NCBI RefSeq assembly: GCF_022458985.1
Contig: NC_061776.1
Span: 7,814,379 to 7,878,378, forward strand
Direction of reading: 5' to 3'
Length of the DNA stretch: 64,000 nucleotides
Source: Mugil cephalus
Lineage: Eukaryota; Chordata; Actinopteri; Mugiliformes; Mugilidae
In this document: positions 419-61,129 of the stretch, one piece after another
How the letters are laid out: every line of letters begins with the position of its first letter
How positions within the stretch are numbered: the stretch's first letter is position 1
Program-made: the position numbers and the translations under genes
The notes under the pieces: model-generated
Told to the model about the DNA's origin: nothing
The model's input: the letters and a program-made list of their open reading frames with translations, nothing else
The model's database searches: none

Positions 419-2931
419 ATGTCTCTCTCTGTGATACTTGGACTGATGCTCTGCATTGAAGCACCAGGTAGGACAAGAACACTGTCTGATTAAATGTTGA
501 CAACAGGAACAGCAACGATACCAGATTCTTTATTTGGATTAATAACAGCAGCAGTAGGGGCACAGCTTCCTGTTTCTGTTTGGAGAAAATGAAATACACC
601 AACTAAAAATCTTCAGTCTTACAAGTCAACGTCTCCATGTCTGTATATATGATTCTAACAAAGCAAAGTCTTCTGAACACATGTACAACCATGAAGAAAT
701 ATCTGAGGCTGCTTGAGGTCATTTTGAGACGTGGACAGATGGAGCAAAGAATGAAAGATGGAACAAGAGGAGAGACAGAAAAATGAGAAAGTGGAAGAAA
801 GTCTCTGTTTTCAGTAGAGACTGTGCAGAGATGTAAAGAAATGTAAAGAGTTCTCTATCATGGGACACAATGTGACAAGAGTTAAGGATATACTGTAGAA
901 CAGTACAAAGTACATTTTTTCCATTGAAAAAATCATCAGAGGCACACCACAACCAAAAACGTTAAAATAAAAGGATATTCTGTAGCCTACATTAAAAATA
1001 CAGCCATTCTCATCAAAGTGTCTTGAATATGAATCAAATAAACACACAAAACAGTATTTCATCGTCCTTTACATTTCTTCTTTCCAGTAAAAAGTGCACT
1101 TAACACGTCCACTTCAAAAACACAGCTTGAACATGAAATGCCACAACAATGTGGCCTTATAACTAAAGAGGTAGTAGAAAACTTTCAAGTGTTTTGCAAA
1201 CTCTAATTCTGTCCAAAGGCATTCTGTTAGCAGGAATACAGAAATATAGTGCTTATTCTGACAGAAGCAATGATATTTGGGAAAAATGTCACTGTTCCAC
1301 ACTGAGAAATATGACAAGTTGCTAGCTAGCTTTAAGGGCTCTCTCTGCTACCGTTGTGGGTTTTCCTGATAAAAGTTGCCTGTTTCTCCGTGTGTTCACA
1401 CAGGCGAACAAAATAGTCTGCAAGCGAAGCGAAAGGTGTTTAAGCTTGTTTGTTACCATGGCATAACAAGCACAACAGAGCATATATATATATATGCATG
1501 CATCACTAGTTCTCTTGTCTCGACCTACAATGCAATTCACTACCTGCTGCTATCTAGTGATAAGGAAGAGTATTACATAAATACGCTGCCAGTCACTACT
1601 ACAGCACCAACACTCGACAATGGCATATTATTTACAGATAATGATAATTTCGTGTTCAAAAACTGTTTTTAGACCAATTAGATGAAATTGGACAATTTCC
1701 CACGGCACACTAGACGATCTCTCACAGCACAGTGGTTGAAAAACACTGATTGGTAAACCACAGGTAAAGCTCTTTCTACAGCAAAGATTTGAACACATTG
1801 AATAGTTGTCAGCAGGAACAAGACAAAACGTTACGTCCCCTTGCAGCCCCTCTGCTGTCCTTCAGTGGAAGCGCAAGTGTCTTTAGGTGGTGATGAACTG
1901 GATTTCCTGTCACATGGTTCAATATGAAGGTTGAAGAAGAAACATATAAGATAAAGGACTGATGTTAAAAGCTATGCTGGATATTGAGTTAGAATTTTAT
2001 TTTTCATTATTATGTATCTACTGTTTTACAGGGTCCAGTGCTGTGACTGATGTGTTTGTGAAGAGAGGAGATGATGTACTTCTGGAAGTTATGGGTGATG
2101 TTCCAGAAAACCTGATAGTTCTTATCTGGAAATTTAATACAAGCAATGTTTTGGTAACATATTCACCTATAAGAGGACCAATAGTCTCTGAAGGTTACAC
2201 TGGAAGGGTTGAGTTCTCTGTGGGAAATTACTCATTGAAATTAAAGAATCTACAAGATGACGACAGTGGAGTTTATACAGTACAATTGGTAGGAGATAAA
2301 GAACAAACAATAACTAAATACATGGTCACAGTTCAAGGTAAGTTTCTGAACATTTCACACACTGACAGAGAACATCTGCTGTCATGTTTGTAAACCTCCT
2401 CACACCTACTTTCCTCCATCAGGTCCAGTGTCTCCAGTTGATCTGAATCCAGACTCTGTGTCCATCAGCTCAGACTCCTGTAACCTCACTGTGACCTGCA
2501 GCACAGAGGACTCACACATCAGCAGCACTTTCACATGTGACACCAAAACCTGCTCTCAGGAGGGAGGAGACCAATCAAAGGTCACCAACTCTGGTGCTTC
2601 CCTCCGTGTCCACCTGTTGAATGGAACAATCATATGTCACCATAGCAACCAAGTCAGCTGGACTCAGAAGAATATGACACAGATTCAGGATCTTTGTCCC
2701 CTACATCCTTGTGAGACTGACAGACAAAACATTTATCTAATAATAACATAAAGGTTCATGTATCTGAACCTGTTGTGGTTTTGCTCTGACACTTTTCTCA
2801 TGTTTGCAGGTCTCTCTGATGGTGTCTCCATCTGTCTGGTGAAAACAGTCGTGTTCTCTGTTGGTCTGATCATCATGGTGTCTGCCGTCATCAGTGTCCT
2901 CCTCATGGAGAAGATCAGGAAACAAAAATAA
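419..2931 (+). CDS. Gene A: two-Ig SLAM/CD2-family-like receptor
   Basis: Exons are 419-467, 2032-2337, 2423-2710 and 2810-2931, all GT-AG and phase 1, giving 254 aa. Residues 1-17 (MSLSVILGLMLCIEAPG) are the signal exon. Residues 18-118 form a V domain with a core Trp and a DDSGVY motif but no cysteines. Residues 120-214 form a C2 domain with six cysteines and N-x-S/T sites. The membrane segment is about residues 222-247 with Lys226, and the tail is only E-K-I-R-K-Q-K. A cysteine-free V domain plus a multi-cysteine C2 is the CD2/SLAM pattern, so a cell-surface recognition role on leukocytes is likely. The C2 exon ends in T rather than G, making a Cys at the C2/TM junction, and Leu replaces the His seen near the end of the TM in other copies. 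Intron 1 (1.56 kb) carries extra repeat DNA. The V sequence (GDVPENLIVLIWKF) is distinct from its neighbours. Confidence 0.82.
468..2031 (+). other. Intron 1 of gene A with inserted repeat DNA
   Basis: The first part (about 468-890) and last part (about 1760-2031) match intron 1 of genes D, M and J. The middle, about 890-1760, is absent from those copies and is an insertion. Its right end (1700-1747) ends in a gttgaaaaacactg motif typical of hAT-type terminal repeats, preceded by a 'cacggcacac' word. I could not locate a convincing left terminus or target duplication. No coding sequence is seen. Confidence 0.45.
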
Positions 2932-4328: not shown

Positions 4329-5508
4329 ATGTCTCTCTCTGTGATACTTGGACTGATGCTCTGCATTGAAGCACCAGGTAGGACAAGAACACTGTCTGAA
4401 TAAATGTTTATTCATTTGATGTTCCAGTAGTTTATGAGCAACTAGTCTGAGAGGACTCATTCTTGTGCTACAGGGGATGAAATAAATCAAAACCTGAACT
4501 GTTCTGTTGTGTTTTTGTATGTTTTATTTTGTTGTATTTTGTTGTGTTCCTGCTGTACAGGGTCCAGCGCAGTGACTCATGTGTTTGTGCAGAAGGGAAA
4601 AGATGTACTTCTAGAAGTCACGGAAGCTGATGTTCTTCAGAAAGATTTAATTCTCCTATGGAGATTCAAACAAAGGGACATTTTAGTACGATTTTTTCCA
4701 GGAACTGAACCAACGGTCTCTAAACTTTACACCGGAAGGCTTGAGTTCTCTCCAAAAAAATACTCAGTGAAACTGAAGAATCTACAAGATGACGACAGTG
4801 GAGTTTATACAGCACGAGTGACAGGGAGTAAAGAACAGACAGTAACTAAATACATGGTCACAGTTCAAGGTAGGTTTCTGAACATTTCACACACTGACAG
4901 AGAACATCTGCTGTCATGTTTGTAAACCTCCTCACACCTACTTTCCTCCATCAGGTCCAGTGTCTCCAGTTGATCTGAATCCAGACTCTGTGTCCATCAG
5001 CTCAGACTCCTGTAACCTCACTGTGACCTGCAGCACTGAGGACTCACACATCAGCAGCACTTTCACATGTGACACCAAAACCTGCTCTCAGGAGGGAGGA
5101 GACCAATCAAAGGTCACCAACTCTGGTGCTTCCCTCCGTGTCCACCTGTTGAATGATACAATCATCTGTAACCATAGCAACCAAGTCAGCTGGACTCAGA
5201 AGAATATGACACAGATTCAGGATCTCTGTCCCCTACATGCTGGTGAGACTGACAGACAAAACATTTATCTTATAATAACATAAAGGTTCATGTATCTGAA
5301 CCTGTTCTGGTTTTGCTCTGACACTTTTCTCATGTTTGCAGGTCTCTCTGATGGTGTCTCCATCTGTCTGGTGAAGACAGTCGTGTTCTCTGTTGGTCTG
5401 ATCATCATGGTGTCTGCTGTCATCAGTGTCCACCTCATGGAGAAGATCAGGAAACAAAATAAACAGTTCTCCTCTAATCAAATGAACATAGAGCTCAATC
5501 TCTTGTAG
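4329..5508 (+). CDS. Gene B: compact, most diverged SLAM/CD2-like receptor
   Basis: Exons are 4329-4377, 4561-4869, 4955-5242 and 5342-5508 (phase 1 throughout), giving 270 aa. Intron 1 is only 183 bp, against 1-5 kb in the other copies. The signal exon reads MSLSVILGLMLCIEAPG. The V exon is one codon longer (309 bp) and clearly diverged: it begins SSAVTHVFVQKGKDVLLEV and carries EADVLQKDLILLWRF and FFPGTEPTVSKLYTGRLEF, still without cysteines. The C2 exon is nearly identical to the other copies, with six Cys and N-glycosylation sites at CNLT, LNDT and KNMT. The TM has the Lys in ICLVKTVVF. The tail is the long form, through NKQFSSNQMNIELNLL and a TAG stop, with no tyrosine. This copy may be closest to an ancestral or separately selected member. 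Function as a surface recognition receptor is inferred. Confidence 0.82.
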
Positions 5509-6844: not shown

Positions 6845-7411
6845 ACGTTATATGACTTATAACATATAACAGGACACCAGAGCACCATTTGGAGGTTCAA
6901 ACAAGGTGTATTGTTATTCAAACTTAAAGAGAGAGAGAGCAGGGTAAAAAAATAAAAATAATAATAATAATAATAAATACAAACTAAACTCAAAGAACTA
7001 AAAAAGGACTGCAGGTGATGGACAAACAGAACAAAAGAGGAAGTCGGAACAAGACCTAAATAAAGGCTGTAGAACCATGACCTCCTTCCACTAAAGACTA
7101 TCTGGCTTAAAGAAAGAAACTAAAGCTAAATAAAATGAACAAAACCCGAAAACAGAACTAAAAATAATAAAGCTCCTGAAGTAGGAATTACCTCAAAGGG
7201 AATTAAATAAACCTCCTGTTTAAGAGGAAAGGAAGATCAAATTAAAAGTCAAGAGTTCACTAGATTAGAGAAGTCGACGTGTTTCCATTTACGTTTTAAC
7301 ACCACAAAACCAGAAGAACAATGATGACTAGGCTGTAGTCTGTGGTGCAGTGATTGGTGGAAACCACTTCACACTGTTAAATTTGTAGTCGACAAAGGGA
7401 GAAGCTCTACC
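6845..7411. other. Repeat-derived flank before unit C
   Basis: It contains a TAA-type microsatellite at 6956-6977 and an A-rich stretch of unknown origin, followed by a promoter-like block near 7290-7400. The same DNA recurs at 9068-9642. No gene is seen. Confidence 0.4.
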
Positions 7412-7458
7412 ATGTCTCTCTCTGATACTTGGACTGATGCTCTGCAATGAAGCACCAG
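7412..7458 (+). pseudogene. Frameshifted MSLSV signal exon (unit C, first)
   Basis: This matches the MSLSV first exon but lacks 2 bp after the TCTCTCTCT run, giving 47 instead of 49 nt and an early TGA. The donor (ggtagg) is kept. The same deletion occurs in the exon at 9643, so both come from one damaged ancestor by tandem duplication. Confidence 0.7.
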
Positions 7459-7788
7459 GTAGGACAAGAACACTGTCTGATTAAATGTTGACAACTGGAA
7501 CAGCAACGATACCAGATTCTTTATTTGGATTAATAACAGCAGCAGTAGGGGCACAGCTTCCTGTTTCTGTTTGGAGAAAATTAAATACACCAACGAGTCT
7601 TCAGAACACAAAGTGAAGAGTCTGTTAAGAGTTCACTGGATTAGAGAAGTTGACTTGAGTGCATTTACGTGTTAATACAAGAAAACCGGAAAGACACAAC
7701 GATGTCTGGCCGTAGTCTGTGGTGTGGTGGTTGATTCAAAACTATTTCCACTGTTACATTTACATTTAACAAAGCAAGAAGCTCTACC

Positions 7789-8227
7789 ATGTCTCAAAGG
7801 AATTTGACTTTCTTCTCTGGAATTTTCATAAAAGTTATGGTATAAATTTAATAACATATTCACCTGGTAGAAAACCAAGAGTCTCTGAAGGTTACACTGG
7901 AAGGGTTGAGTTCTCTGTGGAAAATTACTCGTTGAAATTAAAGAATCTACAAGATGACGACAGTGGAGTTTATACAGCACTAGTGACAGGAGATAAAGAC
8001 CAAACAATAACTAAATACATGGTCACAGTTCAAGGTAGGTTTCTGAACATTTCACACACTGACAGAGAACATCTGCTGTCATGTTTGTAAACCTCCTCAC
8101 ACCTACTTTCCTCCATCAGGTCCAGTGTCTCCAGTTGATCTGAATCCAGACTCTGTGTCCATCAGCTCAGACTCCTGTAACCTCACTGTGACCTGCAGCA
8201 CAGAGGATCTCTGTCTCCTACATGCTG
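7789..8227 (+). pseudogene. Copy C: deletion pseudogene of the receptor family
   Basis: Two deletions and a truncation have destroyed this copy. The ATGTCTC start of a signal exon (7789-7795) is joined directly to the middle of a V exon (7796-8034), losing the signal peptide and the V N-terminal half. The C2 exon (8120-8227) lacks its central part: AGCACAGAG is followed by the last codons GATCTCTGTCTCC. The third intron jumps after gtgagactg into the dispersed repeat at 8233, so the TM exon is gone. The junctions share short microhomology (agga; agactg), consistent with end-joining deletions. The ETS/RUNX promoter block upstream (7685-7735) is retained. Confidence 0.8.
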
Positions 8228-8229
8228 GT

Positions 8230-9067: not shown

Positions 9068-9170
9068 ACGTTATATGACTTATAACATATAACAGGACAC
9101 CAGAGCACCATTTGTAGGTTCAAACAAGGTGTATTTTTATTCAAACTTAAAGAGAGAGAGAGCAGGGTAA

Positions 9171-9642: not shown

Positions 9643-11546
9643 ATGTCTCTCTCTGATACTTGGACTGATGCTCTGCAATGAAGCACCAGGTACAAGAACA
9701 TTGTCTGATTAAATGTTGACAACAGGAACAGCAACGATACCAGATTCTTTAGGTGGGGCTTATAAGAATTGTCTCTTTATTGAAATGAACTGTGAACAAA
9801 TTAAGACCCAAACTAATATGATGTTATAAAGGAGGGATCACAGTGTTATTTTGACCAAGTTGATTTAAACAACACTTCTGACTTCTCTCTGCAAACAATA
9901 GCTCAGCTTCCTGTTTCTGTTCTGAGAAAATTAAATACACAAACTAAAAATCTTCAGTCTTACAAGTTAACGTCTCAATGTCTGTATATAAAATGAGAAA
10001 CAAAACACATTTGAAACAATAATCAAAATGTCAACACACACATTTGATTAAACTTATTTCAAGTTGCTGGTTTATTAAAGATCAGTTGATTCTAACAAAG
10101 TGAAGTCTTCTGAACACATGTACAACCATGAAGAAATATCTGAGGCTGCTTGAGGTCATTTTGAGACGTGGACAGATGGAGCCAAGAATGAAAGATGGAA
10201 CAAGAGGAGAGACAGAAAAATGACAAAGTGGAAGAAAGTCTCTGTTTTCAGTAGAGAATGTGCAGAGATGTAAAGAAATGTAAAGAGTTCTCTATCATGG
10301 GACACAATGTGACAAGAGTTATTAATATAGTGTAGAGAGAGGTTTACCTGTTTATCTTTCTAGTAAAGGTTTGAACACATTGAATAGTTGTCAGCAGGAA
10401 CAAGACAAAACTTTACGTCCCCTTGCAGCCCCTCTGCTGTCCTTCAGTGGCAGCGCAAGTGTCTTTAGGTGGTGATGAGCTGGATTTCCTGTCACATGGT
10501 TCAATATGAAGGTTGAAGAGGAAACATGTAAGATAAAGGACTGATGTTAAAAACTATGCTGGATATTGAGTTAGAGTTTTATTTATCATTATTATGTATC
10601 TACTGTTTTACAGGGTCCAGTGCTGTGACTGATGTGTTTGTGAAGAGAGGAGATGATGTACTTCTGGAAGTCATGGATGATGTTACAAAGGACTTAGAGT
10701 TTCTTCGATGGACAGTTAATACAAACAGTGTTTTAGTAGAATATTCACTTGGTGGAAAACCAACAGTCCCTGAAGGTTACACTGGAAGGGTTGAGTTCTC
10801 TGTGGAAAATTACTCGTTGAAATTAAAGAATCTACAAGATGACGACAGTGGAGTTTATACAGCACGAGTGACAGGAGATGAAGAACAAACAATAACTAAA
10901 TACATGGTCACAGTTGAAGGTAGGTTTCTGAACATTTTACACACTGACAGAGAACATCTGCTGTCATGTTTGTTAACCTCCTCACACCTACTTTCCTCCA
11001 TCAGGTCCAGTGTCTCCAGTTGATCTGAATCCAGACTCTGTGTCCATCAGCTCAGACTCCTGTAACCTCACTGTGACCTGCAGCACAGAGGACTCACACA
11101 TCAGCAGCACTTTCACATGTGACACCAAAACCTGCTCTCAGGAGGGAGGAGACCAATCAAAGGTCACCAACTCTGGTGCTTCCCTCCGTGTCCACCTGTT
11201 GAATGATTCAATCATCTGTTACCATAGCAACCAAATCAGCTGGACTCAGAATATGACACAGATTCAGGATTTCTGTCCCCTACATGCTGGTAAGACTGAC
11301 AGACAAAACATTTATCTAATAATAACATAAAGGTTCATGTATCTGAACCTGTTGTGGTTTTGCTCTGACAGTTTTCTCATGTTTGCAGGTCTCTCTGATG
11401 GTGTCTCCATCTGTCTGGTGAAGACAGTCGTGTTCTCTGTTGGTCTGATCATCATGGTGTCTGTCGTCATCAGTGTCCACCTCATGGAGAAGATCAGGAA
11501 ACTAAAATCAAATCAAATGTACATAGAGTTCACTCTCTTACAGTGA
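9643..11546 (+). CDS. Gene D: SLAM/CD2-like receptor with damaged signal exon
   Basis: Exons are 9643-9689, 10614-10919, 11005-11289 and 11389-11546. The V, C2 and TM exons are open with good splice sites (C2 donor gtaagac). The signal exon has the same 2-bp deletion as 7412-7458 and stops early. Starting instead at the internal ATG 9668 restores the frame but gives only MLCNEAP before the V domain, probably too short for a signal peptide. The V domain reads DDVTKDLEFLRWTVNT and EYSLGGKPTVPEGYTGRVEF, with no Cys. The TM keeps the Lys. The tail, RKLKSNQMYIEFTLLQ, is the only one in the window with a tyrosine (YIEF fits a YxxPhi sorting motif, not an ITIM or ITSM). It may be a young pseudogene or may use another first exon. 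Confidence 0.6.
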
Positions 11547-13348: not shown

Positions 13349-13397
13349 CTGGTGCTTCAATGCAGAGCATCAGTCCAAGTATCACAGAGAGAGACAT
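13349..13397 (-). pseudogene. Orphan MSLSV signal exon (minus)
   Basis: An intact 49-nt signal exon (ATG at 13397, donor after 13349) with promoter block at higher coordinates. No V exon lies downstream on the minus strand before gene D, so this is the 5' stump of a lost gene. Confidence 0.7.
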
Positions 13398-13986: not shown

Positions 13987-14183
13987 TCATAAATGACTCA
14001 TACTTATGAGAGACTTATCATATTCATCATATTTATCATATTTGTTATTATATATATTTTTTATATTTAGTTTCCTGATCTTCTCCATGAGGTGGACACT
14101 GATGACGACAGACACCATGATGATCAGACCAACAGAGAACACGACTGTCTTCACCAGACAGATGGAGACACCATCAGAGAGAC
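13987..14183 (-). pseudogene. Orphan transmembrane exon (minus)
   Basis: The acceptor (tttgcag|gtc) at 14183 and the DGVSICLVKTVVFSVG frame are intact, but no C2 exon lies upstream on this strand. Loss of one A after RKL removes the normal stop and extends the frame into AT-rich DNA (to 13987). It is divergent from, and 244 bp away from, the MELK exon of gene E. Confidence 0.7.
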
Positions 14184-14426: not shown

Positions 14427-17400
14427 ATGGAACTTAAATCTTTCTTATTGGCTGTTTTTGTGATATTTTCAAGTCAAATTCAAGGTAAGATCTTATTCTT
14501 GTATTAGTAATAGTTTGTGTTTTTTATATTCTTAATTTTAAAATCTGCTTTTCGTACTATAGCTCTGAAATGTCTCCATAAAAGATAGAATTGAAACTAA
14601 CAGCATGCGACCACAGGAGGAAGAAGCAGATATTAAAGTTCTATATGTCCAGAGTACGTTGTAGCTGTAACTGTTTCTTTAGAGAGAGAACGAATGTTTC
14701 AGCAGCATTTGTCTATTTCATCAACCACTTCCTGTGGTCATGGCTTAAAATGGCGTCTCAACACATTTATAGTTTTTCATGACAAAGTCAAGGTTAGAAC
14801 TTTACAACTATTGTTACTTCGTCTCCTGATTGTTGTTTTCAAAGCTGAGATCTTGTGGCATTACTATCGTATCACCTTAAATAATTAGTAGTTTTAGCTT
14901 TAAAGACCGCACTTGTTGGTGGGATCATTCTGAGGTACTTTAATATGTACTACATGGATACCAACTGCTACATATAAGTATACAGTTATGCATATTTTAG
15001 ATTTACACATTTATTTTTACATATTTTTTCTTAATTTTTTAACCTGATATATTACTCTGTGTCAGTTTTGCTATAAGAGATGATATTTTTATAAGAGTGT
15101 ATAAATGTAGCATTTGAAATAGTAAATTCATGTTTTATGACAAATAATACAGCTTCAAATTTACCTTTTGTCTTTATTAACAAAATATGAGCTTTTAAAA
15201 TGAAATTTACTCCAATAACAAATAAAAGTATGAAGGTTTAGAGAAAAACTAAAATATCAGACATTTGAGAAGGAAAAATTCAAGCCAACAGCTCCAGGTC
15301 AGTGCTGTAACTGAACTAAATTACAGTCGTACCAATAATGCACACAGCACTCAACAAGAAAACATGTTGCTGGGAGATGGAATATGTCAGTATGTGCATA
15401 TGTGACGGTCTCTGTTTGACTTCCTCAGAATAACAGTGAAAAAAACAACTATGGTCAATTTTAGTTTTATGATAAATTACAGCTACAGATAAATTAAATC
15501 ATGTGATTCCTTATATATGTGCAGCATCTGTATAAATATAACAGGCTAAGGTTGAAAGGGCTGGTGAGCGTGAACCCAGTTGCAAAAGGAAGGGAAGGCA
15601 AAGGTACCGAGTCCACGATCCAGAACCTTTAATCAGAGCGAAGCAGCAGGTCACACAGGGAAGGGCAGACAGAAACAGGCAAACCAGCAGGTAAGGAGCA
15701 GGTGACAATCCAAAAACCAAGACAACTACACTGGTCATACACCACAGGCACGACAGAAGTAACTAGGAAGGCTGGAAAGAAAAGACACACGTTCCTAAGA
15801 TAATCTGGTTCAGAAAACATAGTGGGGTGGGCTTAAATACATGGTGACGAGACACAGGTGAAACACATCGCTAATCAACAAAGGCGGGAAAAGGAACAAA
15901 GAGGGGAAGTAAAACTGACAAACACTGGGAAGACAAATCTTTTCAAAATAAAACAGGAAGCGTACAACACAACACAACAAGAAGTGACAGATTCTGACAA
16001 AGGTAACTCCATCATTTTTTAGTTATTCCTAAAGTGTTTTTGCGTGTGTGTCTGTGTCATTACTATGGGGTGGGGGGGTGTGGTCTGGTCTAGGTGGGTG
16101 GTACAAAGTAATATCCACATATCCACATTTAATTGTCACAAGATGGTCAATGTTTACTTCTCCTGTCGGTGGTTTTAATGTTGTGGCTGATTGATAGATA
16201 GAGTTCCTCTGAACAACTGACTTCTTTTAAACTTGTTCTGTAATCAACATGTTTGGACAGTTTTAACTATCAGCTTCAATTTCTTCACATTTAACTACAG
16301 ACAATAAATATATAAATCAGATATGAGAGCACCACACTAAATAGTAAAACATCATGTATCCAAATCTTTCTACAGAAATGTTTTGTAATGAGGGAAACAG
16401 ACAATCTACAATGTTCTTAGACATTTTATCCATGAAAACCTGATACAAACAGATGAACCATGCTGTTATACTTGTATTATATCATAGTGTGATTGCTGTA
16501 ACTCAGAGACTCAACGCTGTAGAATTTTAATGTTAAACAACAGCTTTTAAATGTTCTTTTCCTCAGTATGTCGTGGTCTAACAATGTCATAAAAATCAAG
16601 GCTAAACAAAGCAATAAGTCAGACATATGTGCAGTAGACACATGTCTGCTCTGAAGCTGATCTTGGACAAACTGACATAGTTACTGTTTGTTCACATGTT
16701 TCTTTGAGGCTCAGAAATATTTTAAAGATAAATGAGTCGTACGTCTGAGAGCTCTGTCGTAACAAATGATGGAACCAAAAGGAAGAAAATAAAAGCAACA
16801 GACACATCAGTGGTTGTTGATGATGAAGAGGTTTCACTCAACTATTTCAGCTAAAACTCTATAAAGACATGGGATAATAATACACAGCACACTGAGAAAC
16901 ACAACAATCAACAGAAGAGTCCATAAGACTTTTACTGACCTCTTTCTTTCTCTGTCACTTGTCATAAATACACACTGAGTCAAAGCAGGTAAAGATGTTT
17001 TCAGCTACAAATGAGAATCCACTCCTTAACAAATCCAGATGAGATAAATATACACAATGATTATTTAACTGATCACTGACATTGTGTTGGAAGTTAGGTA
17101 CAGAAATACAGTATTTATGATTGATCTAATTTCATTATTATGTATCTACTGTTTTACAGGGTCCAGTGCTGTGACTGATGTGTTTGTGAAGAGAGGAGAT
17201 GATGTACTTCTGGAAGTCATGGATGATGCTCCAATGGAATTTGATTTGTTTGTCTGGACATTTAATACAAGCAAAGTTTTAGTAATATATTCACATGTTG
17301 GAGGATCAACAGTCTCTGAAGGTTACACTGGAAGGGTTGAGTTCTCTGTGGGAAATTACTCAGTGAAATTAAAGAATCTACAAGATGACGACAGTGGAGT

Positions 17401-18056
17401 TTATACAGCACTAGTGGTAGGAGCTAAAGACCAAACAATAGCTAAATACATGGTCACAGTTCAAGGTAGGTTTCTGAACATTTCACACACTGACAGAGAA
17501 CATCTGCTGTCATGTTTGTAAACCTCCTCACACCTACTTTCCTCCATCAGGTCCAGTGTCTCCAGTTGATCTGAATCCAGACTCTGTGTCCAACAGCTCA
17601 GACTCCTGTAACCTCACTGTGACCTGCAGCACAGAGGACTCACACATCAACAGCACTTTCACATGTGACACCAAAACCTGCTCTCAGGAGGGAGGAGACC
17701 AATCAAAGGTCACCAACTCTGGTGCTTCCCTCCGTGTCCACCTGTTGAATGATGCAATCATCTGTAACCATAGCAACCAAGTCAGCTGGACTCAGAAGAA
17801 GACACAGATTCAGGATTTCTGTCCCCTACATGCTGGTGAGACTGACAGACAAAACATTTATCTAATAATAACATAAAGGTTCATGTATCTGAACCTGTTG
17901 TGGTTTTGCTCTGACAGTTTTCTCATGTTTGCAGGTCTCTCTGATGGTGTCTCCATCTGTCTGGTGAAGACAGTCGTGTTCTCTGTTGGTCTGATCATCA
18001 TGGTGTCTGTCGTCATCAGTGTCCACCTCATGGAGAAGATCAGGAAACTAAAATAA
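14427..18056 (+). CDS. Gene E: SLAM/CD2-like receptor with MELK signal exon
   Basis: Exons are 14427-14484, 17160-17465, 17551-17835 and 17935-18056, giving 256 aa. The signal exon differs from the MSLSV type: MELKSFLLAVFVIFSSQ is a typical signal peptide, it ends caag|gtaaga, and it is phase 1, so it joins the same V exon in frame. The V domain (DDAPMEFDLFVWTFNT, SHVGGSTVSEGYTGRVEF, TALVVGAKDQTIAKY) lacks Cys. C2 has six Cys and one codon fewer than in A (QKKTQ). The TM keeps the Lys and the tail is E-K-I-R-K-L-K. The 2.7 kb first intron contains a solo LTR. It lies tail-to-tail with gene F. Choice of this exon 1 rests on its frame, donor and position, repeated in four units. Confidence 0.8.
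15553..15999 (-). mobile_element. Solo LTR, copy 1 (minus)
   Basis: It begins tgaaagggctggtgagc and ends gattctgaca on the plus strand, flanked on both sides by AAGGT. On the minus strand it is TG...CA with a tatttaagccc TATA-like box and a gattaaaagg poly(A)-like signal. No internal retrotransposon genes are present. It is shared with units F, I and K at the same site. Confidence 0.75.
16000..17159 (+). other. Rest of MELK-type intron 1 in gene E
   Basis: Moderately AT-rich DNA shared with F, I and K. From 17084 an ATG frame (MLEVRYRNTVFMIDLISLL) runs open through the V acceptor into the V domain; see findings. Near 16060-16200 lies a 'gtggtttaatgttgtggctg' teleost repeat word. Nothing else is recognised. 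Confidence 0.4.
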
Positions 18057-23100: not shown

Positions 23101-23482
23101 GTTGTAAAGTTCTAACCTTGACTTTGTCATGAAAAACTATAAATGTGTTGAGATGCCATTTTAAGCCATGACCACAGGAAGTGGTTCATGAACTAGACAA
23201 ACGCTGCTGAAACATTCGTCCTCTCTCTAAAGAAACAGTTACAGCTACAACGTACTCTGGACATATAGAACTTTAATATCTGCTTCTTCCTCCTGTGATC
23301 GCATGCTTTTAGTTTCAATTCTATCTTTTATGGAGACATCTCAGAGCTATAGGACGAAAAGCAGATTTTAAAGTTAAGAAGATAAAAAACACCAAGTATT
23401 ACTCATACAAGAATAGGATCTTACCTTGAATTTGAATTGAAAATATCACAAAAACAGTCAATAAGAAAGATTTAATTTCCAT
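20200..23482 (-). CDS. Gene F: SLAM/CD2-like receptor, mirror copy of E
   Basis: Minus-strand exons in order are 23482-23425, 21096-20791, 20705-20421 and 20321-20200, giving 256 aa. The signal exon reads MEIKSFLLTVFVIFSIQ. The V domain carries DDVTKDFQFLAWKFNT, GYSPGGKPRVSEGYTGRVEF and TARVMGDKEQ, with no Cys. C2 has six Cys and ENRTQ in place of TQKNMTQ, which keeps an N-glycosylation site. The TM keeps the Lys, and the tail stops at K-I-R-K-L-K although the longer-tail sequence (SSNQMNIELN type) follows out of frame. The first intron holds the same solo LTR as gene E. Its 3' flank is class alpha, unlike its mirror partner E, so the inversion and the flank exchange were separate events. Confidence 0.8.
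21937..22384 (+). mobile_element. Solo LTR, copy 2 (plus)
   Basis: 448 bp, starting TGTCAGAATCTG and ending CCCTTTCA, with a perfect 5-bp duplication ACCTT at 21932-21936 and 22385-22389. It contains a tatttaagccc TATA-like box (about 22097) and ctgattaaaagg (about 22299). The features fit an LTR of a retrotransposon with 5-bp target duplications; the family is not assigned. Confidence 0.8.
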
Positions 23483-23726: not shown

Positions 23727-23845
23727 GTCTCTCTGATGGTGTCTCCATCTTTCTGGTGAAGACAGTCGTGTTCTCTGTTGGTCTGATCATCATGGTGTCT
23801 GTCGTCATCAGTGTCCACCTCATGGAGAAGATCAGGAAACTAAAT

Positions 23846-23896
<51 letters not shown>

Positions 23897-24539: not shown

Positions 24540-24588
24540 ATGTCTCTCTCTGTGATACTTGGACTGATGCTCTGCATTGAAGCACCAG
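24540..24588 (+). pseudogene. Orphan MSLSV signal exon
   Basis: An intact 49-nt signal exon with donor and ETS/RUNX promoter block. Its unit continues like intron 1 of gene M to about 25510, then stops at an LTR; no V exon follows before the next signal exon at 26643. In principle it could still splice to the V exon of gene G at 31912. Confidence 0.65.
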
Positions 24589-36160: not shown

Positions 36161-36209
36161 CTGGTGCTTCAATGCAGAGCATCAGTCCAAGTATCACAGA
36201 GAGAGACAT
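36161..36209 (-). pseudogene. Orphan MSLSV signal exon (minus)
   Basis: Intact 49-nt exon, ATG at 36209, donor at 36160. It is the counterpart of 13349-13397, with no V exon downstream on the minus strand. Confidence 0.7.
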
Positions 36210-36909: not shown

Positions 36910-37100
36910 TCAAAAGTATCGATAATTTTTATATTTTATATTATTATATTTATTATATTTGTTATTATATATATTTTTTCTATTTAGTTTCCTGATCTTC
37001 TCCATGAGGTGGACACTGATGACGACAGACACCATGATGATCAGACCAACAGAGAACACGACTGTCTTCACCAGACAGATGGAGACACCATCAGAGAGAC
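36910..37100 (-). pseudogene. Orphan transmembrane exon (minus)
   Basis: Counterpart of 13987-14183: acceptor at 37100, Lys-containing TM frame, and a lost stop that extends the frame into AT-rich DNA. A CTCF-like core lies at 37235-37250 between it and the MELK exon. Confidence 0.7.
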
Positions 37101-44640: not shown

Positions 44641-46850
44641 AGCTCTGACCAATCCAACAGCTGAAGAGTTAGATCAGTCAACTCTGTGTTTATTCATGTG
44701 CACGGTGAATGAAACAAAGATAATCATTCAGAAGTTCCAATAAAGGTTCATCCTGACACTGGGTGTGGTAGTAAATGTGGTTTGAATATGAGCACGATAA
44801 CAATGTGAAACTTTAATTTCTACCATAAGCTGTGAGATGCTTTAACTTGTGGTTCACACTGTTGCAGTGTGTGTTCAACAAAGCAAGAGGCTTTGTGACA
44901 CTGGGACTGATGCTCTGCATTGACAACAATGTCTAATTAAATGTTACTAAAGTAAAATGGTGTTATTACAAAAATACAGCCAGAAGGAGTTTTGTTCAGG
45001 AAGTTGATGCAAACGGAAACGTCACACTTCTTACTGCTGAATCCAAACCAGCCTCCTGATCTTGAAACGTATACATCACCACAACAAACAACAACACATG
45101 TGTGAGGTTAGTAAAAAGATACAGTATGTGTAAATGTACATATAGTAGGTAGGGGTCCCTACTCAGTCTCTCCATCAGTTTGGGGGTGCTGGGTCTGAAA
45201 AATGTTGAAAAACCTGAAAAACCCCTGTTCTTCAGTATATTGTACTATGAGTTAATGCAACAACAGAAACACCAACCAGAGGACACAATCATACTGAATA
45301 TGTGAAAATAGTATTTAAAACTATAATAAAAAGATTAAGTAATAGAGACTATAAAAAAAAATATATTATTATAAGTAGCCCTCAGAAGACCCATGTTCAT
45401 TCTCAGATGAGTAACAACTGTTTTGGAGGCACAAGGGAGACCTACACAATATTAATAAGGTGGTCATAATGTTATGCCTGATCAGTGTAAGTCCTGTAAA
45501 CTTTGTCTCATAATAAACTGCAAAAAATACTATTACTACTATAATATTAATAATTCATTTACTATATAAATCCTATTGAACTCTGTTTACCACCTACAAC
45601 TAATAAATTCTTTCTGGGAAAATATATTTATCATTATTAATTTAACTTGTTGTTCACTGAGAACTCAAACAGCAACAGTTTGAACAGATGGATCAAAGTC
45701 ATTTAATCAGTTCAGAGAAAGTGAGAAGAAAACAGCAGAAAGGAACAGAGAGGTTCAGAGAGCAAAGTTAGCATGATCATAAGAGCCACATTAAAGGGAC
45801 ATAATTCAGAATCAGATCATGCTCAGTCATAGACACGTATTACAGCTTGTGTTTTTGTTCATTCTGTCACTTTATAGAAAATAAAAGTCATGTTCATCAT
45901 GTGTAACATTTTCAGCGTGGAATCAGTGATAGATCTATAGCACATAACATAGTGAGTGAAGGCAACGCAAAATATGTGATTCAAAAACATTTAATGACAC
46001 TTGAATGAAGAAAGTAAACCTTCTTCTGGCACTCAAACACAACCATGAAAATAAACCTGTACAAAACAGCATGTGCTGACTGTTCTGGGTCCTATATGTT
46101 CTTTTGCAGCAGAAGAATTAGCTGTGAAGTAAACAGACACACACAAACACTAAATATCTTAAATACAATGAAAATATGTAAAACATGAAATGTAAATACT
46201 GCAGCATACTGCTATCTTACAGTGCAATGGCTTCAAGCCCACATTCATTTACTGTAAATTATTTCTGTACAATTCAGGATCATCATTTTGTTGTGTTTAC
46301 AACGTATTCCTTCATTCTTTCTGTTTTTTGAAATGTATAGATCAGTTTATTTAACAGATATCTGAAGCTTATGAGGAATGTGCTTGAATGTGAAATGGAA
46401 CTATTCAACACAACTACAGATTAAAATCTGCCGACAAACCACAACATAATTGAATTTAATCCTTATATGTGTTAATATATGATCTAGTTTAAATATAAAC
46501 TTCTTCTGTAGCAGTAACTTCAGCTTTGAACTTAACATCAAGTATCTAGTTGACCAGACTCTCTCTAACATACTGCTGTGATCCTCCCTACACAGCAGCG
46601 CCCTCTGGTGGCTCAACAGTGGAAAGACGCCACTGGCTGTAAGAGAAAAAAATCCACAGGCAACTTTAAGATGTTCACTACAAGAGATTGAGCTCTATGT
46701 TCATTTGATTAGAGGAGAACTGTTTATTTTAGTTTCCTGATCTTCTCCATGAGGTGGACACTGATGACGACAGACACCATGATGATCAGACCAACAGAGA
46801 ACACGACTGTCTTCACCAGAAAGATGGAGACACCATCAGAGAGACCTGCA
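44640..46850 (-). repeat. Inverted copy of the K 3' region
   Basis: Read on the minus strand from 46850 to 44640, this matches 52700-54710 and, more completely, 60960-63240. It includes the orphan TM exon, CTCF-like motif (46596-46611) and a decayed first-exon relative (44887-44930). The forward copies are 3' flanks of genes K and M. Confidence 0.65.
46724..46845 (-). pseudogene. Orphan transmembrane exon (minus), normal stop
   Basis: 122-nt exon with intact acceptor (46845), FLVKTVVF TM frame and RKLK tail ending at TAA 46726-46724. The upstream side on this strand has no C2 exon and breaks near 46930. Its own class alpha 3' flank follows. Confidence 0.7.
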
Positions 46851-48844: not shown

Positions 48845-48966
48845 TTATTTTAGTTTCCTGATCTTCTCCATGAGGTGGACACTGATGACGACAGACACCA
48901 TGATGATCAGACCAACAGAGAACACGACTGTCATCACCACAAAGATGGAGACACCATCAGAGAGAC
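48845..48966 (-). pseudogene. Orphan transmembrane exon (minus), Lys replaced
   Basis: 122-nt exon with acceptor at 48966 and stop 48847-48845. It reads SIFVVMTVVFSVG, with Met in place of the TM Lys, the same variant as gene K, 3.7 kb away. No C2 exon belongs to it. Confidence 0.7.
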
Positions 48967-49200: not shown

Positions 49201-52200
49201 ATGGAACTTAAATCTTTCTTATTGGCTGTTTTTGTGATATATTCAAGTCAAATTCAAGGTAAGATCTTATTCTTGTATTAGTAAAAGTTGGTGTTTTTTA
49301 TATTCTTAATTTTAAAATCTGCTTTTCATACTATAGCTCTGAAATGTCTCCATAAAAGATAGAATTGAAACTAACAGCATGCGACCACAGGAGAAAGAAG
49401 CAGATATTAAAGTTCTATATCACCAGAGTACATTGTAGCTGTAACAGTTTTTTTAGAGAGAGGACTAATGTTTCAGCAGCATTTGTCTATTTCATCAACC
49501 ACTTCCTGTGTTCATAGCTTAAAATGGCATCTCAACACATTTATAGTTTTTCATGACAAAGTCAAGGTTAGAACTTTACAACTATTGTTACTTCGTCTCT
49601 TGATTGTTGTTTTCAAAGCTGAGATGTTGTGGCAGTACTATCGTATCACCTTAAATAATTTAGCTTTAAAGACCGTACTTGTTGGTGGGATCATTCTGAG
49701 GTACTTTAATATGTACTACATGGATACTAACTGCTACATATAAGTATACAGTAATGCATATTCTTAGATTTACACATTTATTTTTACATATTTTTTTCTA
49801 AATATTGTAATTTGATATTTTACTCTGTGTCACTTTTGCTATAAGAGATGATATTTTATAAGAGTGTATAAACGTAGCATTTGAAATAGTAAATTCATGT
49901 TTTATGTCAAATAATACAGCTTCAAATTTACCTTGTGTCTCTATTAACAAAATATGAGCTTTTAAAATGAAATTTACTCTAATAACAAATAAAAGTATGA
50001 AGGTTTAGAGAAAAACTAAAACATCAGACATGTGAGAAGGAAAAATTCAAGCCAAAAGCTCCAGGTCAGTGCTGTAACTGAACTAAATTACAGTCGTACC
50101 AATAATGCAGACAGCACTCAACAAGAAAACATGTTGCTGGGAGATGGAATATGTCAGTATGTGCATATGTGACGGTCTCTGTTTGACTTCCTCAGAATAA
50201 CAGTGAAAAAAACATCTATGGTCAATGTTACTTTTATTCTAAATTACAGTTACAGATAAATTAAATCATGTGATTCCTTATATATGTGCAGCATCTATAA
50301 ATATAACAGGCTAAGGTTGAAAGGGCTGGTGAGCGTGAACCCAGTTGCAAAAGGAAGGGAAGGTACAAAGGTACCGAGTCCACGATCCAGAACCTTTAAT
50401 CAGAGCGAAGCAGCAGGTCACACAGGGAAGGGCAGACAGAATCAGGCAAACCAGCAGGTAAGGAGCAGGCGACAATCCAAAAACCAAGACAACTAGACTG
50501 GTCATACACCACAGGCACAACAGAAGTTACTAGGAAGGCTGGAAAGAAAAGACACACGGTTCTAAGACAATCTGGCTCAGAAAACATAGTGGGGTGGGCT
50601 TAAATACATGGTGACAAGACACAGGTGAAACACAGCGCTAATCAACAAAGGCGGGAAAAGGAACAAAGAGGGGAAGTAAAACTGACAAACACTGGGAAGA
50701 CAAATCTTTTCAAAATAAAACAGGAAGCGTACAACACAACACAACAAGAAGCGACAGATTCTGACAAAGGTAACTCAATCTTTCTTTAGTTATTCCCAAA
50801 GTGTTTCTGCGTGTGTGTCTGTCATTGCTATGGGGTGGGGGGGTGTGGTCTGGTCTAGGTGGGTGGTACAAAGTAATATCCACATATCCACATTTAATTG
50901 TCACAAGATGGTCAATGTTTACTTCTCCTGTCGGTGGTTTTAATGTTGTGGCTGATTGATAGATAGAGTTCCTCTGAACAACTGACTTCTCTTAAACTTG
51001 TTCTGTAATCAACATGTTTGGACAGTTTTAACTATCAGCTTCCATTTCTTCACATTTAACTACAGACAATAAATATATAAATCAGATTTGAGAGCACCAC
51101 ACTAAATAGTAAAACATCATGTATCCAAATCTTTCTACAGAATTGTTTTGTAATGAGGGAAACAGACAATCTACAATGTTCTTAGACATTTTATCCATGA
51201 AAACCTGATACAAACAGATGAACCATGCTGTTATACTTGTATTATATCATAGTGTGATTGCTGTAACTCAGAGACTCAACGCTGTAGAATTTAAATGTTA
51301 AACAACAGCTTTTAAATGTTCTTTTCCTCAGTATGTCGTGGTCTAACAATTTCATAAAAATCAAGGCTAAACAATGCAATAAGTCAGACATATGTGCAGT
51401 AGACACATGTCTGCTGTGAAGCTGAACTTGGACAAACTGACATGGTCACTGTTTGTTCACATGTTTCTTTGAGGCTCAGATATATTTTAAAGATAAATGA
51501 GTCGTACGTCTGAGAGCTCTGTCGTAACAAATGATGGAACCAAAAGGAAGAAAATAAAAGCAACAGACACATCAGTGGTTGTTGATGATGAAGAGGTTTC
51601 ACTCAACTATTTCAGCTAAAACTCTATAAAGACATGGGATAATAATACACAGCACACTGAGAAACACAACAATCAACAGAAGAGTCCATAAGACTTTTAC
51701 TGACCTCTTTCTTTCTCTGTCACTTGTCATAAATACACACTGAGTCAAAGCAGGTAAAGATGTTTTCAGCTACAAATGAGAATCCACTCCTTAACAAATC
51801 CAGATGAGATAAATATACACAATCATTATTTAACTGATCACTGACATTGTGTTGGAAGTTAGGTACAGAAATACAGTATTTATGATTGATCTAATTTCAT
51901 TATTATGTATCTACTGTTTTACAGGGTCCAGTGCTGTGACTGATGTGTTTGTGAAGAGAGGAGATGATGTACTTCTGGAAGTCATGGATGATGTTACAAA
52001 GGAATTTGATTTGTTTCTCTGGACATTTGATACAAGCAATGTTTTAGTAAGATATTCACCTGGTGGAAAACCAAGAGTCTCTGAAGGTTACACTGGAAGG
52101 GTTGAGTTCTCTGTGGAAAATTACTCAGTGAAATTAAAGAATCTACAAGATGACGACAGTGGAGTTTATACAGCACGAGTGACAGGAGATAAAGACCAAA

Positions 52201-52872
52201 CAATAGCTAAATACATGGTCACAGTTCAAGGTAGGTTTCTGAACATTTCACACACTGACAGAGAACATCTGCTGTCATGTTTGTAAACCTCCTCACACCT
52301 ACTTTCCTCCATCAGGTCCAGTGTCTCCAGTTGATCTGAATCCAGACTCTGTGTCCATCAGCTCAGACTCCTGTAACCTCACTGTGACCTGCAGCACAGA
52401 GGTCTCACACATCAGCAGCACTTTCACATGTGACACCAAAACCTGCTCTCAGGAGGGAGGAGACCAATCAAAGGTCACCAACTCTGGTGCTTCCCTCCGT
52501 GTCCACCTGTTGAATGACGCGATCATCTGTAACCATAGCAACCAAGTCAGCTGGACTCAGAAGAATATGACACAGATTCAGGATCTCTGTCTCCTACATG
52601 CTGGTGAGACTGACAGACAAAACATTTATCTAATAATAACATGAAGGTTCATGTATCTGAACCTGTTGTGGTTTTGCTCTGACAGTTTTCTCATGTTTGC
52701 AGGTCTCTCTGATGGTGTCTCCATCTTTGTGGTGATGACAGTCGTGTTCTCTGTTGGTCTGATCATCATGGTGTCTGTCGTCATCAGTGTCCACCTCATG
52801 GAGAAGATCAGGAAACAAAATAAACAGTTCTCCTCTAATCAAATGAACATAGAGCTCAATATCTTACAGTGA
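49201..52872 (+). CDS. Gene K: SLAM/CD2-like receptor lacking the TM lysine
   Basis: Exons are 49201-49258, 51925-52230, 52316-52603 and 52703-52872, giving 273 aa. The signal exon reads MELKSFLLAVFVIYSSQ. The V domain (DDVTKEFDLFLWTFDT, RYSPGGKPRVSEGYTGRVEF, TARVTGDKDQTIAKY) lacks Cys. C2 has six Cys and EVSHISS where others have EDSHISS. The TM reads SIFVVMTVVFSVG, so the Lys of the other copies is Met here. The tail is the long form ending NIELNILQ, without Tyr. Intron 1 holds the solo LTR. The class alpha 3' flank has a CTCF-like motif missing one G (52936-52950). Without the Lys it should not pair with an adaptor in the way proposed for the others. Confidence 0.8.
50318..50766 (-). mobile_element. 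Solo LTR, copy 4 (minus)
   Basis: Same insertion as copies 1-3 with AAGGT at 50313-50317 and 50767-50771. Confidence 0.75.
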
Positions 52873-55839: not shown

Positions 55840-55888
55840 ATGTCTCTCTCTGTGATACTTGGACTGATGCTCTGCATTGAAGCACCAG
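55840..55888 (+). pseudogene. Orphan MSLSV signal exon L
   Basis: Intact 49-nt exon and donor. Its intron breaks at about 56009, soon followed by a DNA transposon, and no V exon lies before the next promoter at 58.9 kb. Splicing to the V exon of gene M (60185) is formally possible. Confidence 0.65.
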
Positions 55889-57953: not shown

Positions 57954-57961
57954 GTAGAGGC

Positions 57962-59017: not shown

Positions 59018-61129
59018 ATGTCTCTCTCTGTGATACTTGGACTGATGCTCTACATTGAAGCACCAGGTAGGACAAGAACACTGTCTGATTAAATGTTGAC
59101 AACAGGAACAGCAACGATACCAGATTCTTTATTTGGATTAATAACAGCAGCAGTAGGGGCACAAGTGGATCCAGTTTATATCTAATGATCAGAAAAACAC
59201 ACATGAAACCTGAAATAATGTGTTGTTCTATTAGAGAAGAGAAGGTGACAGTAGTTTATCTTTCTTTATATGTATAATCAGAAACAAATGGACCAAGAGA
59301 GGAAAGATATGAATAGAGGGAGGGGCTTATAAGAATTGTCTCTGTATTGAAATAAACTGTGAACAAATTAAGACCTCAACTAATATGATGTTATAAAGGA
59401 GGGATCACAGTGATGTTTTATTTTGACCTAGTTGATTTAAACAACACTTCTGACTTCTCTCTGCAAACAATAGCTCAGCTTCCTGTTTCTGTTCTGAGAA
59501 AATTAAATACACAAACTAAAATCTTCAGTATTACAAGTTAACGTCTCAGTGTCTGTATATAAAATGAGAGACGAAGCACATTTGAAACAATAATCAAAAT
59601 GTCAACACACACATTTGATTAAACTTATTTCAAGTTGCTGGATTATTAAAGATCAGTTGATTCTAACAAAGTGAAGTCTTCTGAACACATGTACAACCAT
59701 GAAGAAATATCTGAGGCTGCTTGAGGTCATTTTGAGATGTGGACAGATGGAGCAAAGAATGAAAGATGGAACAAGAGGAGAGACAGAAAAATGAGAAAGT
59801 GGGAGAAAGTCTCTGTTTTCAGTAGAGACTGTGCAGAGATGTAAAGAAATGTAAAGAGTTCTCTATCATGGGACACAATGTGACAAGAGTTATTAATATA
59901 GTGTAGAGAGAGGTTTACCTGTTTATCTTTCTAGTAAAGGTTTGAACACATTGAATAGTTGTCAGCTGGAACAAGACAAAACGTTACGTCCCCTTGCAGC
60001 CCCTCTGCTGTCCTTCAGTGGCAGCGCAAGTGTCTTTAGGTGGTGATGAGCTGGATTTCCTGTCACATGATTCAATATGAAGGTTGAAGAGGAAACATAT
60101 AAGATAAAGAACTGATGTTAAAAACTATGCTGGATATTGAGTTAGAATTTTATTTATCATTATTATGTATCTACTGTTTTACAGGGTCCAGTGCTGTGAC
60201 TGATGTGTTTGTGAAGAGAGGAGATGATGTACTTCTGGAAGTTATGGATGATGCTCCAAAGGACTTTGATTTGTTTGTCTGGACATTTAATACAAGCAAT
60301 GTTTTAGTAGGATATTCATCTGTTGGAGTACAAACAGTCTCTGAAGGTTACACTGGAAGGGTTGAGTTCTCTGTGGAAAATTACTCAGTGAAATTAAAGA
60401 ATCTACAAGATGACGACAGTGGAGTTTATACAGCACGAGTGACAGGATATAAACAACAAACAATAGCTGAATACATGGTCACAGTTCAAGGTAGGTTTCT
60501 GAACATTTCACACACTGACAGAGAACATCTGCTGTCATGTTTGTAAACCTCCTCACACCTACTTTCCTCCATCAGGTCCAGTGTCTCCAGTTGATCTGAA
60601 TCCAGACTCTGTGTCCATCAGCTCAGACTCCTGTAAACTCACTGTGACCTGCAGCACAGAGGACTCACACATCAGCAGCACTTTCACATGTGACACCAAA
60701 ACCTGCTCTCAGGAGGGAGGAGACCAATCAAAGGTCACCAACTCTGGTGCTTCCCTCCGTGTCCACCTGTTGAATGACACGATCATCTGTAACCATAGCA
60801 ACCGAGTCAGCTGGACTCAGAAGAAGACACAGATTCAGGATCTCTGTCTCCTACATGCTGGTGAGACTGACAGACAAAACATTTATCTAATAATATAGTA
60901 AAGGTTCATGTATCTGAACCTGTTGTGGTTTTGCTCTGACAGTTTTCTCATGTTTGCAGGTCTCTCTGATGGTGTCTCCATCTGTCTGGTGAAGACAGTC
61001 GTGTTCTCTGTTGGTCTGATCATCATGGTGTCTGTCGTCATCAGTGTCCACCTCATGGAGAAGATCAGGAAACAAAATAAACAGTTCTCCTCTAATCAAA
61101 TGAACATAGAGCTCAATCTCTTACAGTGA
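59018..61129 (+). CDS. Gene M: SLAM/CD2-like receptor, long tail
   Basis: Exons are 59018-59066, 60185-60490, 60576-60860 and 60960-61129, giving 269 aa. The signal exon is MSLSVILGLMLYIEAPG, with Tyr for the usual Cys. The V domain (DDAPKDFDLFVWTFNT, GYSSVGVQTVSEGYTGRVEF, TARVTGYKQQTIAEY) lacks Cys. C2 has six Cys; SCKLTVTC replaces SCNLTVTC, removing one N-glycosylation site, and NHSNRVSW replaces NHSNQVSW. The TM keeps the Lys and the tail ends NIELNLLQ, without Tyr. It has the simplest, uninterrupted MSLSV-type structure in the window and is the best reference copy for that class. Intron 1 is 1.1 kb. The class alpha 3' flank follows. Confidence 0.83.

Follow-up and report, generated by a model that had tools for sequence, protein, structure and literature searches.

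Candidate paired receptors of the CD2/SLAM type in an expanded gene array of Mugil cephalus

The mammalian SLAM family (CD48/SLAMF2, SLAMF6, CD244; human 1q23) is small, comprising nine genes, is read via SAP-type adaptors, and has V domains that are free of cysteine. Its members are mostly self-binding, and the immunoreceptor tyrosine-based switch motifs (ITSMs) of SLAMF tails bind SAP, EAT-2, and SHP phosphatases, but the ITSM is not universal in the family, being absent in SLAMF2, 8, and 9 (PMC4718992, in the part of the text available). Here we describe a window of 64,000 nucleotides of Mugil cephalus (the whole stretch of DNA analyzed; C7:7814379-7878378, contig NC_061776.1 of assembly GCF_022458985.1) that contains a dense array of receptor genes, each encoding a signal peptide, a cysteine-free V domain, a six-cysteine C2 domain, and one transmembrane (TM) segment. 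With a probability of roughly 80%, we regard this window as the short-tailed, lysine-TM part of an expanded array of paired receptors of the natural killer (NK) type in the fish SLAM locus. This reading is based on the exons, their homology and synteny, two classes of TM segment and tail (class I and class II), and the diversity of the V domains.

Like the mammalian SLAM genes, the fish array combines a cysteine-rich C2 domain, V domains with matches to SLAM proteins, and linkage to KCNJ10, VANGL2, and FCER1G, and its class II includes tails with the TxYxxV form (two of eight models). In contrast to the nine mammalian genes, it consists of tens of near-identical copies, has a TM-lysine class without ITSM, and shows V diversity focused in the putative C-C'-C'' and F-G stretches. 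The fish C2 domain also has an extra CxxxxC pair, which, to our knowledge, is absent in mammalian SLAM members. The closest precedent, judged by its title alone, is amphibian, as Guselnikov et al. in 2011 (Immunogenetics 63:679) reportedly described a CD2/SLAM expansion with diversified signalling in Xenopus.

Among the paired receptors of fish, the NITRs resemble the array in their clustered genes, a V domain followed by a second immunoglobulin (Ig) domain, strongly divergent V domains, and the coexistence of charged-TM forms with forms carrying an immunoreceptor tyrosine-based inhibition motif (ITIM). They differ in that nearly all medaka NITRs carry a J or J-like motif (PMC2442602, as far as the accessible text goes), which is absent in the fish array with its cysteine-free V domains and SLAM-type locus. 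Catfish IpLITRs include a short-tailed member with a TM lysine that binds FcR-gamma (PMC4810170, available sections), but they form a separate receptor family in which the lysine is dispensable. The CEACAMs, too, are a rapidly evolving family with both activating and inhibitory receptors (PMC2832619, in the excerpt available), but their V similarity is weaker, and the fish array is SLAM-syntenic. Paired fish receptors (NITR, LITR) are already known, and so, reportedly, is a CD2/SLAM expansion in Xenopus. No paper with a title naming a teleost paired CD2/SLAM array was found in a literature search that covered subscription journals thinly, which is weak evidence of absence. If the reading is true, SLAM genes would fill a role held elsewhere by KIR, LILR, or NITR, and the array would be a concrete system for asking which ligand drives the diversity and whether the old SLAM/FcR-gamma gene link is functional.

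The repeated receptor gene

V, C2, and TM exons of the window were located by tblastn with the three domains as queries, and relatives were also searched for in the genome (635 Mb, 24 contigs) and in the flanks, which covered 140 kb around the window as well as 40 kb and 20 kb at side clusters. Both strands of the window together contain 11 V exons (10 full, 1 truncated), 11 C2 exons (10 full, 1 truncated), 14 TM exons, two kinds of leader exon, and one extra 13-residue tail fragment; the V matches have E-values of at most 2e-38 and are thus not due to chance. This bears out a preliminary description, made from the sequence alone, which had seen one four-exon plan in at least ten full or partial copies on both strands. 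It had also listed nine orphan exons, a number that agrees with our own count of five TM exons and four spare SPA leaders.

The joints from V through C2 to TM are in phase 1 throughout, and nine spliced models with 250-273 residues could be written from the window. Six genes have all four exons intact and sound splice sites (leaders at 419, 4329, 14427, 23482 on the minus strand, 49201, and 59018), which includes the only complete gene of the minus strand. The others are damaged or composite: gene 3 is a remnant, gene 4 has a frameshifted leader, gene 7 includes a C2 exon with a lost acceptor, and gene 8 has an extra V exon and a C2 exon that lost its donor. As the C2 exon at 32303 is without AG acceptor, the gene 7 V exon at 31912 must splice to the C2 exon at 33591. 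The exons are as follows, in window positions:

419..467, +, gene 1 leader exon (SPA)
2032..2337, +, gene 1 V exon
2423..2710, +, gene 1 C2 exon
2810..2931, +, gene 1 TM exon, membrane Lys, short tail
4329..4377, +, gene 2 leader exon (SPA)
4561..4869, +, gene 2 V exon, the most divergent V
4955..5242, +, gene 2 C2 exon
5342..5508, +, gene 2 TM exon, Lys
7393..8208, +, gene 3 remnant: frameshifted leader, 5'-truncated V (7791), truncated C2
10614..10919, +, gene 4 V exon; leader at 9637 frameshifted
11005..11289, +, gene 4 C2 exon
11389..11546, +, gene 4 TM exon, Lys; one tail tyrosine, not in ITIM/ITSM form
13349..13397, -, orphan SPA leader exon
14065..14183, -, orphan TM exon (5' part), back to back with the next leader; frame continues to a later stop
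14427..14484, +, gene 5 leader exon (SPB)
17160..17465, +, gene 5 V exon; closest relative is the class II V at C7:7988351
17551..17835, +, gene 5 C2 exon
17935..18056, +, gene 5 TM exon, Lys
20200..20321, -, gene 6 TM exon, Lys
20421..20705, -, gene 6 C2 exon
20791..21096, -, gene 6 V exon
23425..23482, -, gene 6 leader exon (SPB)
23727..23848, +, orphan TM exon (5' part), Lys, runs into AT repeat
24540..24588, +, spare SPA leader exon
26643..26691, +, SPA leader exon, candidate for gene 7
31912..32217, +, gene 7 V exon
32303..32587, +, C2 exon, AG acceptor lost
33591..33878, +, gene 7 usable C2 exon
33978..34099, +, gene 7 TM exon, Lys
36161..36209, -, orphan SPA leader exon
36952..37100, -, orphan TM exon (5' part), Lys; frame continues to a later stop
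37345..37402, +, gene 8 leader exon (SPB)
40032..40337, +, V exon without its own C2; duplication breakpoint after it
41235..41540, +, gene 8 second V exon
41626..41910, +, gene 8 C2 exon, GT donor lost
42010..42179, +, gene 8 TM exon, Lys
46724..46845, -, orphan TM exon, Lys
48845..48966, -, orphan TM exon, Met for Lys
49201..49258, +, gene 9 leader exon (SPB)
51925..52230, +, gene 9 V exon
52316..52603, +, gene 9 C2 exon
52703..52872, +, gene 9 TM exon, Met for Lys
55840..55888, +, spare SPA leader exon
59018..59066, +, gene 10 leader exon (SPA)
60185..60490, +, gene 10 V exon
60576..60860, +, gene 10 C2 exon
60960..61129, +, gene 10 TM exon, Lys

The two leader kinds, SPA (MSLSVILGLMLCIEAP/G; eight intact copies in the window) and SPB (MELKSFLLAVFVIFSSQIQ/G; four copies), are unrelated. 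SPA exons diverge by only about 1% across 15 array copies, whereas the flanking DNA differs by 20-50%; as the 15 copies were taken from 17 full-length ones by 98% identity over the exon query, the 1% is partly a result of construction, but the fall-off in the flanks is not. Rearrangement has left a scar at the SPB leaders: of the 13 full ones in the main array, 11 have an orphan TM exon lying back to back with them. Tandem pairs of SPA leaders, possibly alternative first exons, are found upstream of V in five class I genes (window 24540/26643 and 55840/59018; C7:7884964/7886666, 7920093/7920586, and 7952686/7953188). The order leader, V, V, C2, TM at 37345-42179 would permit a V-V-C2 protein or, given the lost C2 donor, a soluble product.

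Kilobase-long repeated segments of the array are about 92-97% identical, including a 4.1-kb segment repeated in the same orientation (95.9%) and inverted 2.7-kb segments (95%). Together with the restriction of the domain matches to C7 among the best-scoring candidates, this supports the recent duplication that had been proposed. The region of about 26800-31500 in the window is not among the longest 120 repeat pairs and contains three open frames without Pfam match. Ten long open frames of the window other than the receptor exons gave no Pfam match above cut-off, and Rfam at gathering scores gave no match in the window.

Membrane exons and tails of the two classes

The class I TM exon reads GLSDGVSICLVKTVVFSVGLIIMVSVVISVHLMEKIRK or nearly so and ends in a short tail. 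Its lysine is present in 26 of the 28 class I TM exons of the array that cover the site (12 of 14 in the window) and is followed by about 20 hydrophobic residues on its C-terminal side, which resembles the spacing in mammalian FcR-gamma partners. The tails have no tyrosine in eight of the nine window models, including all intact genes, the exception being gene 4 with a single tyrosine outside ITIM/ITSM, and an ITSM is absent from all nine. In three orphan TM exons, the reading continues into a repeat that includes tyrosines. The right flank contributes another four class I genes, which are on its plus strand.

The minus-strand V-C2 genes of the right flank, which constitute class II, are without a class I TM exon. 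Instead, an uncharged TM exon, mostly ending in T/GTAAGT, follows about 350-600 bases past C2, and further exons with tyrosine motifs are found downstream of it. ITIM forms (for instance, STYCLV, SLYAMV, or SLYATV) occur in three of the models that read into such a tail; four of the eight class II models do not reach it, having a stop in TM, a phase mismatch, or a first tail exon that was not found. Among the best-scoring candidates, the class II tail exon has 13 genome matches at E<0.1, all on C7 and none in the window, and neither class II TM exons nor tyrosine-tail exons were found within the window. TVYSAI, located beside the TM exons of a side cluster at 4.9 Mb, was considered as an ITSM exon and rejected, as its main-array counterparts carry a stop and it adjoins the likely donor of the TM exon.

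With their short tail and TM lysine, class I receptors should need an adaptor with an immunoreceptor tyrosine-based activation motif (ITAM), by analogy with stimulatory fish receptors. The likeliest partner would be FcR-gamma, which is encoded about 140 kb from the right end of the array. The catfish receptor IpLITR 2.6b, which has a TM lysine, co-precipitates FcR-gamma, FcR-gamma-like, and CD3-zeta-like, not DAP12, in the results given in the accessible part of PMC4810170. DAP12 may nevertheless also serve class I, because Dap12 is the adaptor of those activating NITRs whose TM segment has a charged residue (PMC2442602, available text). Class II, in which an uncharged TM segment and in part an ITSM/ITIM tail follow the same V-C2 ectodomain, should recruit SH2 proteins, presumably SAP or SHP phosphatases. 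Activating and inhibitory versions seem, by sequence, to draw on one V pool, and we infer that the products would bind ligands, send opposing signals, and be expressed in leukocytes. A more far-reaching proposal is that the SLAM locus turned into an NK-receptor complex, in which a hypervariable V pool is reassorted by inversion and gene conversion between FcR-gamma-coupled activating and ITSM/ITIM classes, with the FcR-gamma gene in the locus, and diverse, perhaps pathogen-driven, ligand recognition replaces self-binding. We put this forward tentatively, at a little less than an even chance.

Several points weigh against the paired-receptor reading. Met replaces Lys in two TM exons, one of which belongs to an intact gene (gene 9), and the ratio of nonsynonymous to synonymous differences (pN/pS) is about 0.9 over the 14 window TM exons (0.0219/0.0243), indicating little constraint, so that the retention of the lysine may partly reflect recent copying. 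IpLITR 2.6b still bound adaptors after its TM lysine had been changed (PMC4810170, in the sections available). Only four of the eight class II models read into the tail (II_7892, II_7962, II_7988, and II_7999), and of these II_7999 has no identified leader and II_7988 ends early, with the first of two tail exons used. A strict ITSM (TxYxxV, as TEYAAV or TEYATV) is found in two of the eight. The Lys-to-Met change (SIFVVMTVV) is common to the TM exons 48845-48966 and 52703-52872, one of them an orphan on the opposite strand, and this pair likely originated from conversion or inverted duplication.

Some of these points would also fit an expanded CD2/SLAM adhesion family, in which the short-tailed members are non-signalling ligands or decoys like SLAMF8/9 or CD48 and the lysine merely marks the outer end of the TM helix. 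With about 20 hydrophobic residues after it, the lysine may sit at the membrane edge, and the Met-containing exons and the TM exon pN/pS of about 0.9 point in the same direction. There are also mammalian examples of such tails, as those of SLAMF8/9 have about 30 residues without ITSM and SLAMF2 is anchored by glycosylphosphatidylinositol (PMC4718992, available part). However, an adhesion family does not readily account for a lysine that is kept in 26 of 28 TM exons, for FCER1G in the locus, or for a tyrosine-tailed class with a common V pool. We therefore consider it the most serious alternative to the paired-receptor reading, albeit an unlikely one.

Diversity and exchange of the V domain

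Selection was analyzed with the 22 V exons of the main array, using codon bootstrap intervals. Overall, pN/pS is 1.48 for V, compared to 0.57 for C2. The V codons 24-55 and 85-96 have a pN/pS of 2.00 (bootstrap 1.39-2.95) and the remaining codons 0.64 (0.37-1.27), a contrast that is inflated, as the fast stretches were picked after the variability was seen, and that counts for less in favor of a diversified binding face. Placed by V landmarks (the strand C Trp at 33 and the strand F Tyr at 82), the fast stretches would correspond to C-C'-C'' and F-G, which form the binding face in CD2/SLAM proteins. The V-C2 intron diverges by 1.3%, as against 17% for V codons 24-55 (20 genes, with gene 2 excluded as the most divergent). 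Class I-I, II-II, and I-II distances are of one size in each part compared. In the paired-receptor reading, inversion, duplication, and probably gene conversion keep C2, the V framework, and the V-C2 intron alike, whereas selection diversifies the presumed V binding face, with one V pool supplying both classes.

The distribution of the classes was also compared with a V tree. The class was set by the TM exon that follows, resulting in 13 V exons of class I (including genes 7 and 8), 8 of class II, 5 from the 4.9-Mb cluster, and 1 without class. In this tree, in which 5 of 24 branches are firm, bootstraps are unsettled, and recombination is ignored, class I changes 8 times (9.1 on average after shuffling, with 153 of 500 shuffles as low) and class II 7 times (mean 7.1; 305 of 500), so neither class is clustered. 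The 4.9-Mb V exons form one clade (93/97) and, when used as a third label, make the labels clustered (3 of 200 shuffles). The V exon of gene 5 pairs with a class II V (C7:7988351) with a support of 98/95.

The array could in principle be mostly decaying, i.e., a duplication nursery with few working genes that is kept open by conversion from one or two functional copies. The orphan exons, dead splice sites, frameshifted leaders, Lys-to-Met exons, and degenerate copies at 8.28 Mb are what one would expect from this. On the other hand, six window genes are intact, and a pN/pS of about 2 focused in C-C'-C'' and F-G is unexpected for junk. None of the 27 full V exons has a stop, with about 16 expected without constraint; this set leaves out 8 of the 35 V matches found locally in window and flanks, which are shorter or split and of which 3 contain stops. 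Decay of most of the array is in our view less probable still than an adhesion family.

Locus, family assignment, and further copies

The neighborhood is the strongest evidence for the array being the fish SLAM locus. A KCNJ10 exon (C7:8006276-8006767) lies about 7 kb to the right of the last V exon (1.7e-28; best other Kir 1.3e-12). FCER1G, found as a match of the T-cell receptor (TCR)-zeta/FcR-gamma family at C7:8140392, occupies about 8.139-8.141 Mb, and a VANGL gene follows at C7:8143216-8147110, the two being about 140-150 kb from the right end of the array; three other VANGL loci are on C1, C12, and C23. Two further FCER1G exons, KQPADGGIYA and GLSARSNDTYETIGKDKKPIM, jointly give the ITAM form YxxL-x7-YxxI, split over both. 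In the mouse, the order is Fcer1g ... F11r, Cd244, Slamf7, Cd48, Slamf1, Cd84, Slamf6, Vangl2 ... Kcnj9, Kcnj10, given here with two rows between F11r and Slamf6 omitted, and the region is syntenic with human 1q23 (PMC6120100, in the part available). The fish gene order differs in that KCNJ10 is on the near side of the array, but the linkage is kept.

The preliminary description had also claimed a cysteine-free V domain, a six-cysteine C2 domain, and kinship with CD2/SLAM. None of the 27 full V exons of window and flanks encodes a cysteine, and the canonical B-F disulfide is thus missing. Six cysteines in C2 hold for 9 of the 10 full window copies but not for gene 1, which has a seventh at the splice junction; with the flanks included, 24 of 29 full copies have six. 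The kinship was upheld by searches with V, in which the family comparison was made against PDB chains only. With a V profile, the top three were CD48 (3e-5), a CD48/CD2 chimera (5e-5), and CD48 again (8e-5), followed by CD86 (2e-4), JAML (0.0013), SLAMF6 (0.0018), and CEACAM (0.0029), and single V-C2 sequences found SLAMF6 first (6e-5 and 9e-5). One SLAMF6 alignment extends into C2, where CNLTVTC (CxxxxxC, the first cysteine pair) pairs with CELHLTC of SLAMF6. Membership in CD2/SLAM is supported by the structure matches of V, its lack of cysteines, and the locus neighborhood.

Less favorable to this assignment were the Pfam results, as V matched V-set only, with Receptor_2B4 below cut-off for the window proteins, and a genome search with Receptor_2B4 gave 11 weak matches on C1, C5, and C12 and none on C7. 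The ITAM of FCER1G likewise stayed below the Pfam cut-off (14.8 of 22.2 bits), its TM part matching at 5e-14. C2 alone found no PDB chain by profile and no Ig Pfam family. AlphaFold, run from a shallow alignment of the ten window copies, gave no usable model (predicted local distance difference test, pLDDT, of 34.6 for V and 60.8 for C2), and Foldseek with the poor C2 model found nothing at E<0.001.

Another fish paired-receptor family (NITR, LITR, or CEACAM-like) could have been taken for CD2/SLAM, since NITR clusters also have ITIM and charged-TM forms and an I domain with six conserved cysteines (PMC2442602, accessible text), and the V profile finds CEACAM N domains as well. This is very improbable, as the V exons have no cysteines and, inspected by eye, no J motif (FGxGTxLxV), ending in KYMVTVQ or near variants instead, the best CEACAM match is weaker than that of CD48, and the array sits in SLAM synteny. 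Long, near-identical inverted segments are hard to assemble, but it is just as improbable that misassembly made the inverted and repeated copies, given that the window contains no N and that long segments about 4-8% apart and a gene 2 V exon 33% from its nearest copy differ too much for haplotype copies.

On C7, relatives of V, C2, and TM, those of the window included, occupy 7.816-8.00 Mb, with a side cluster of V and C2 exons at C7:4.909-4.926 Mb and decayed copies at C7:8.28-8.29 Mb. Among the best-scoring candidates, genome matches are on C7 alone for V (E<=0.001) and for C2, TM, and the class II tail exon (E<0.1), the single C2 match off C7 being on C20 (E 0.73). No relative of V is encoded by any viral contig searched. 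Weak 2B4-like V groups are present at C1:37.55-37.64 Mb and C5:13.47-13.99 Mb, the C1 group being located about 0.4 Mb from another FcR-gamma/CD3-zeta family match. In the 4.9-Mb cluster (C7:4907130-4927174), one leader is followed by two tandem V-C2 pairs and another leader by three. Both sets include a single TM exon and a single tail exon, and they resemble SLAMF3, in which V-C2 is duplicated. A stop interrupts one C2 exon of the two-pair set, and one of the leaders lacks a codon but stays in frame. This side cluster is adjoined by a minus-strand TRIM/B30.2 gene with an open frame of 607 residues.

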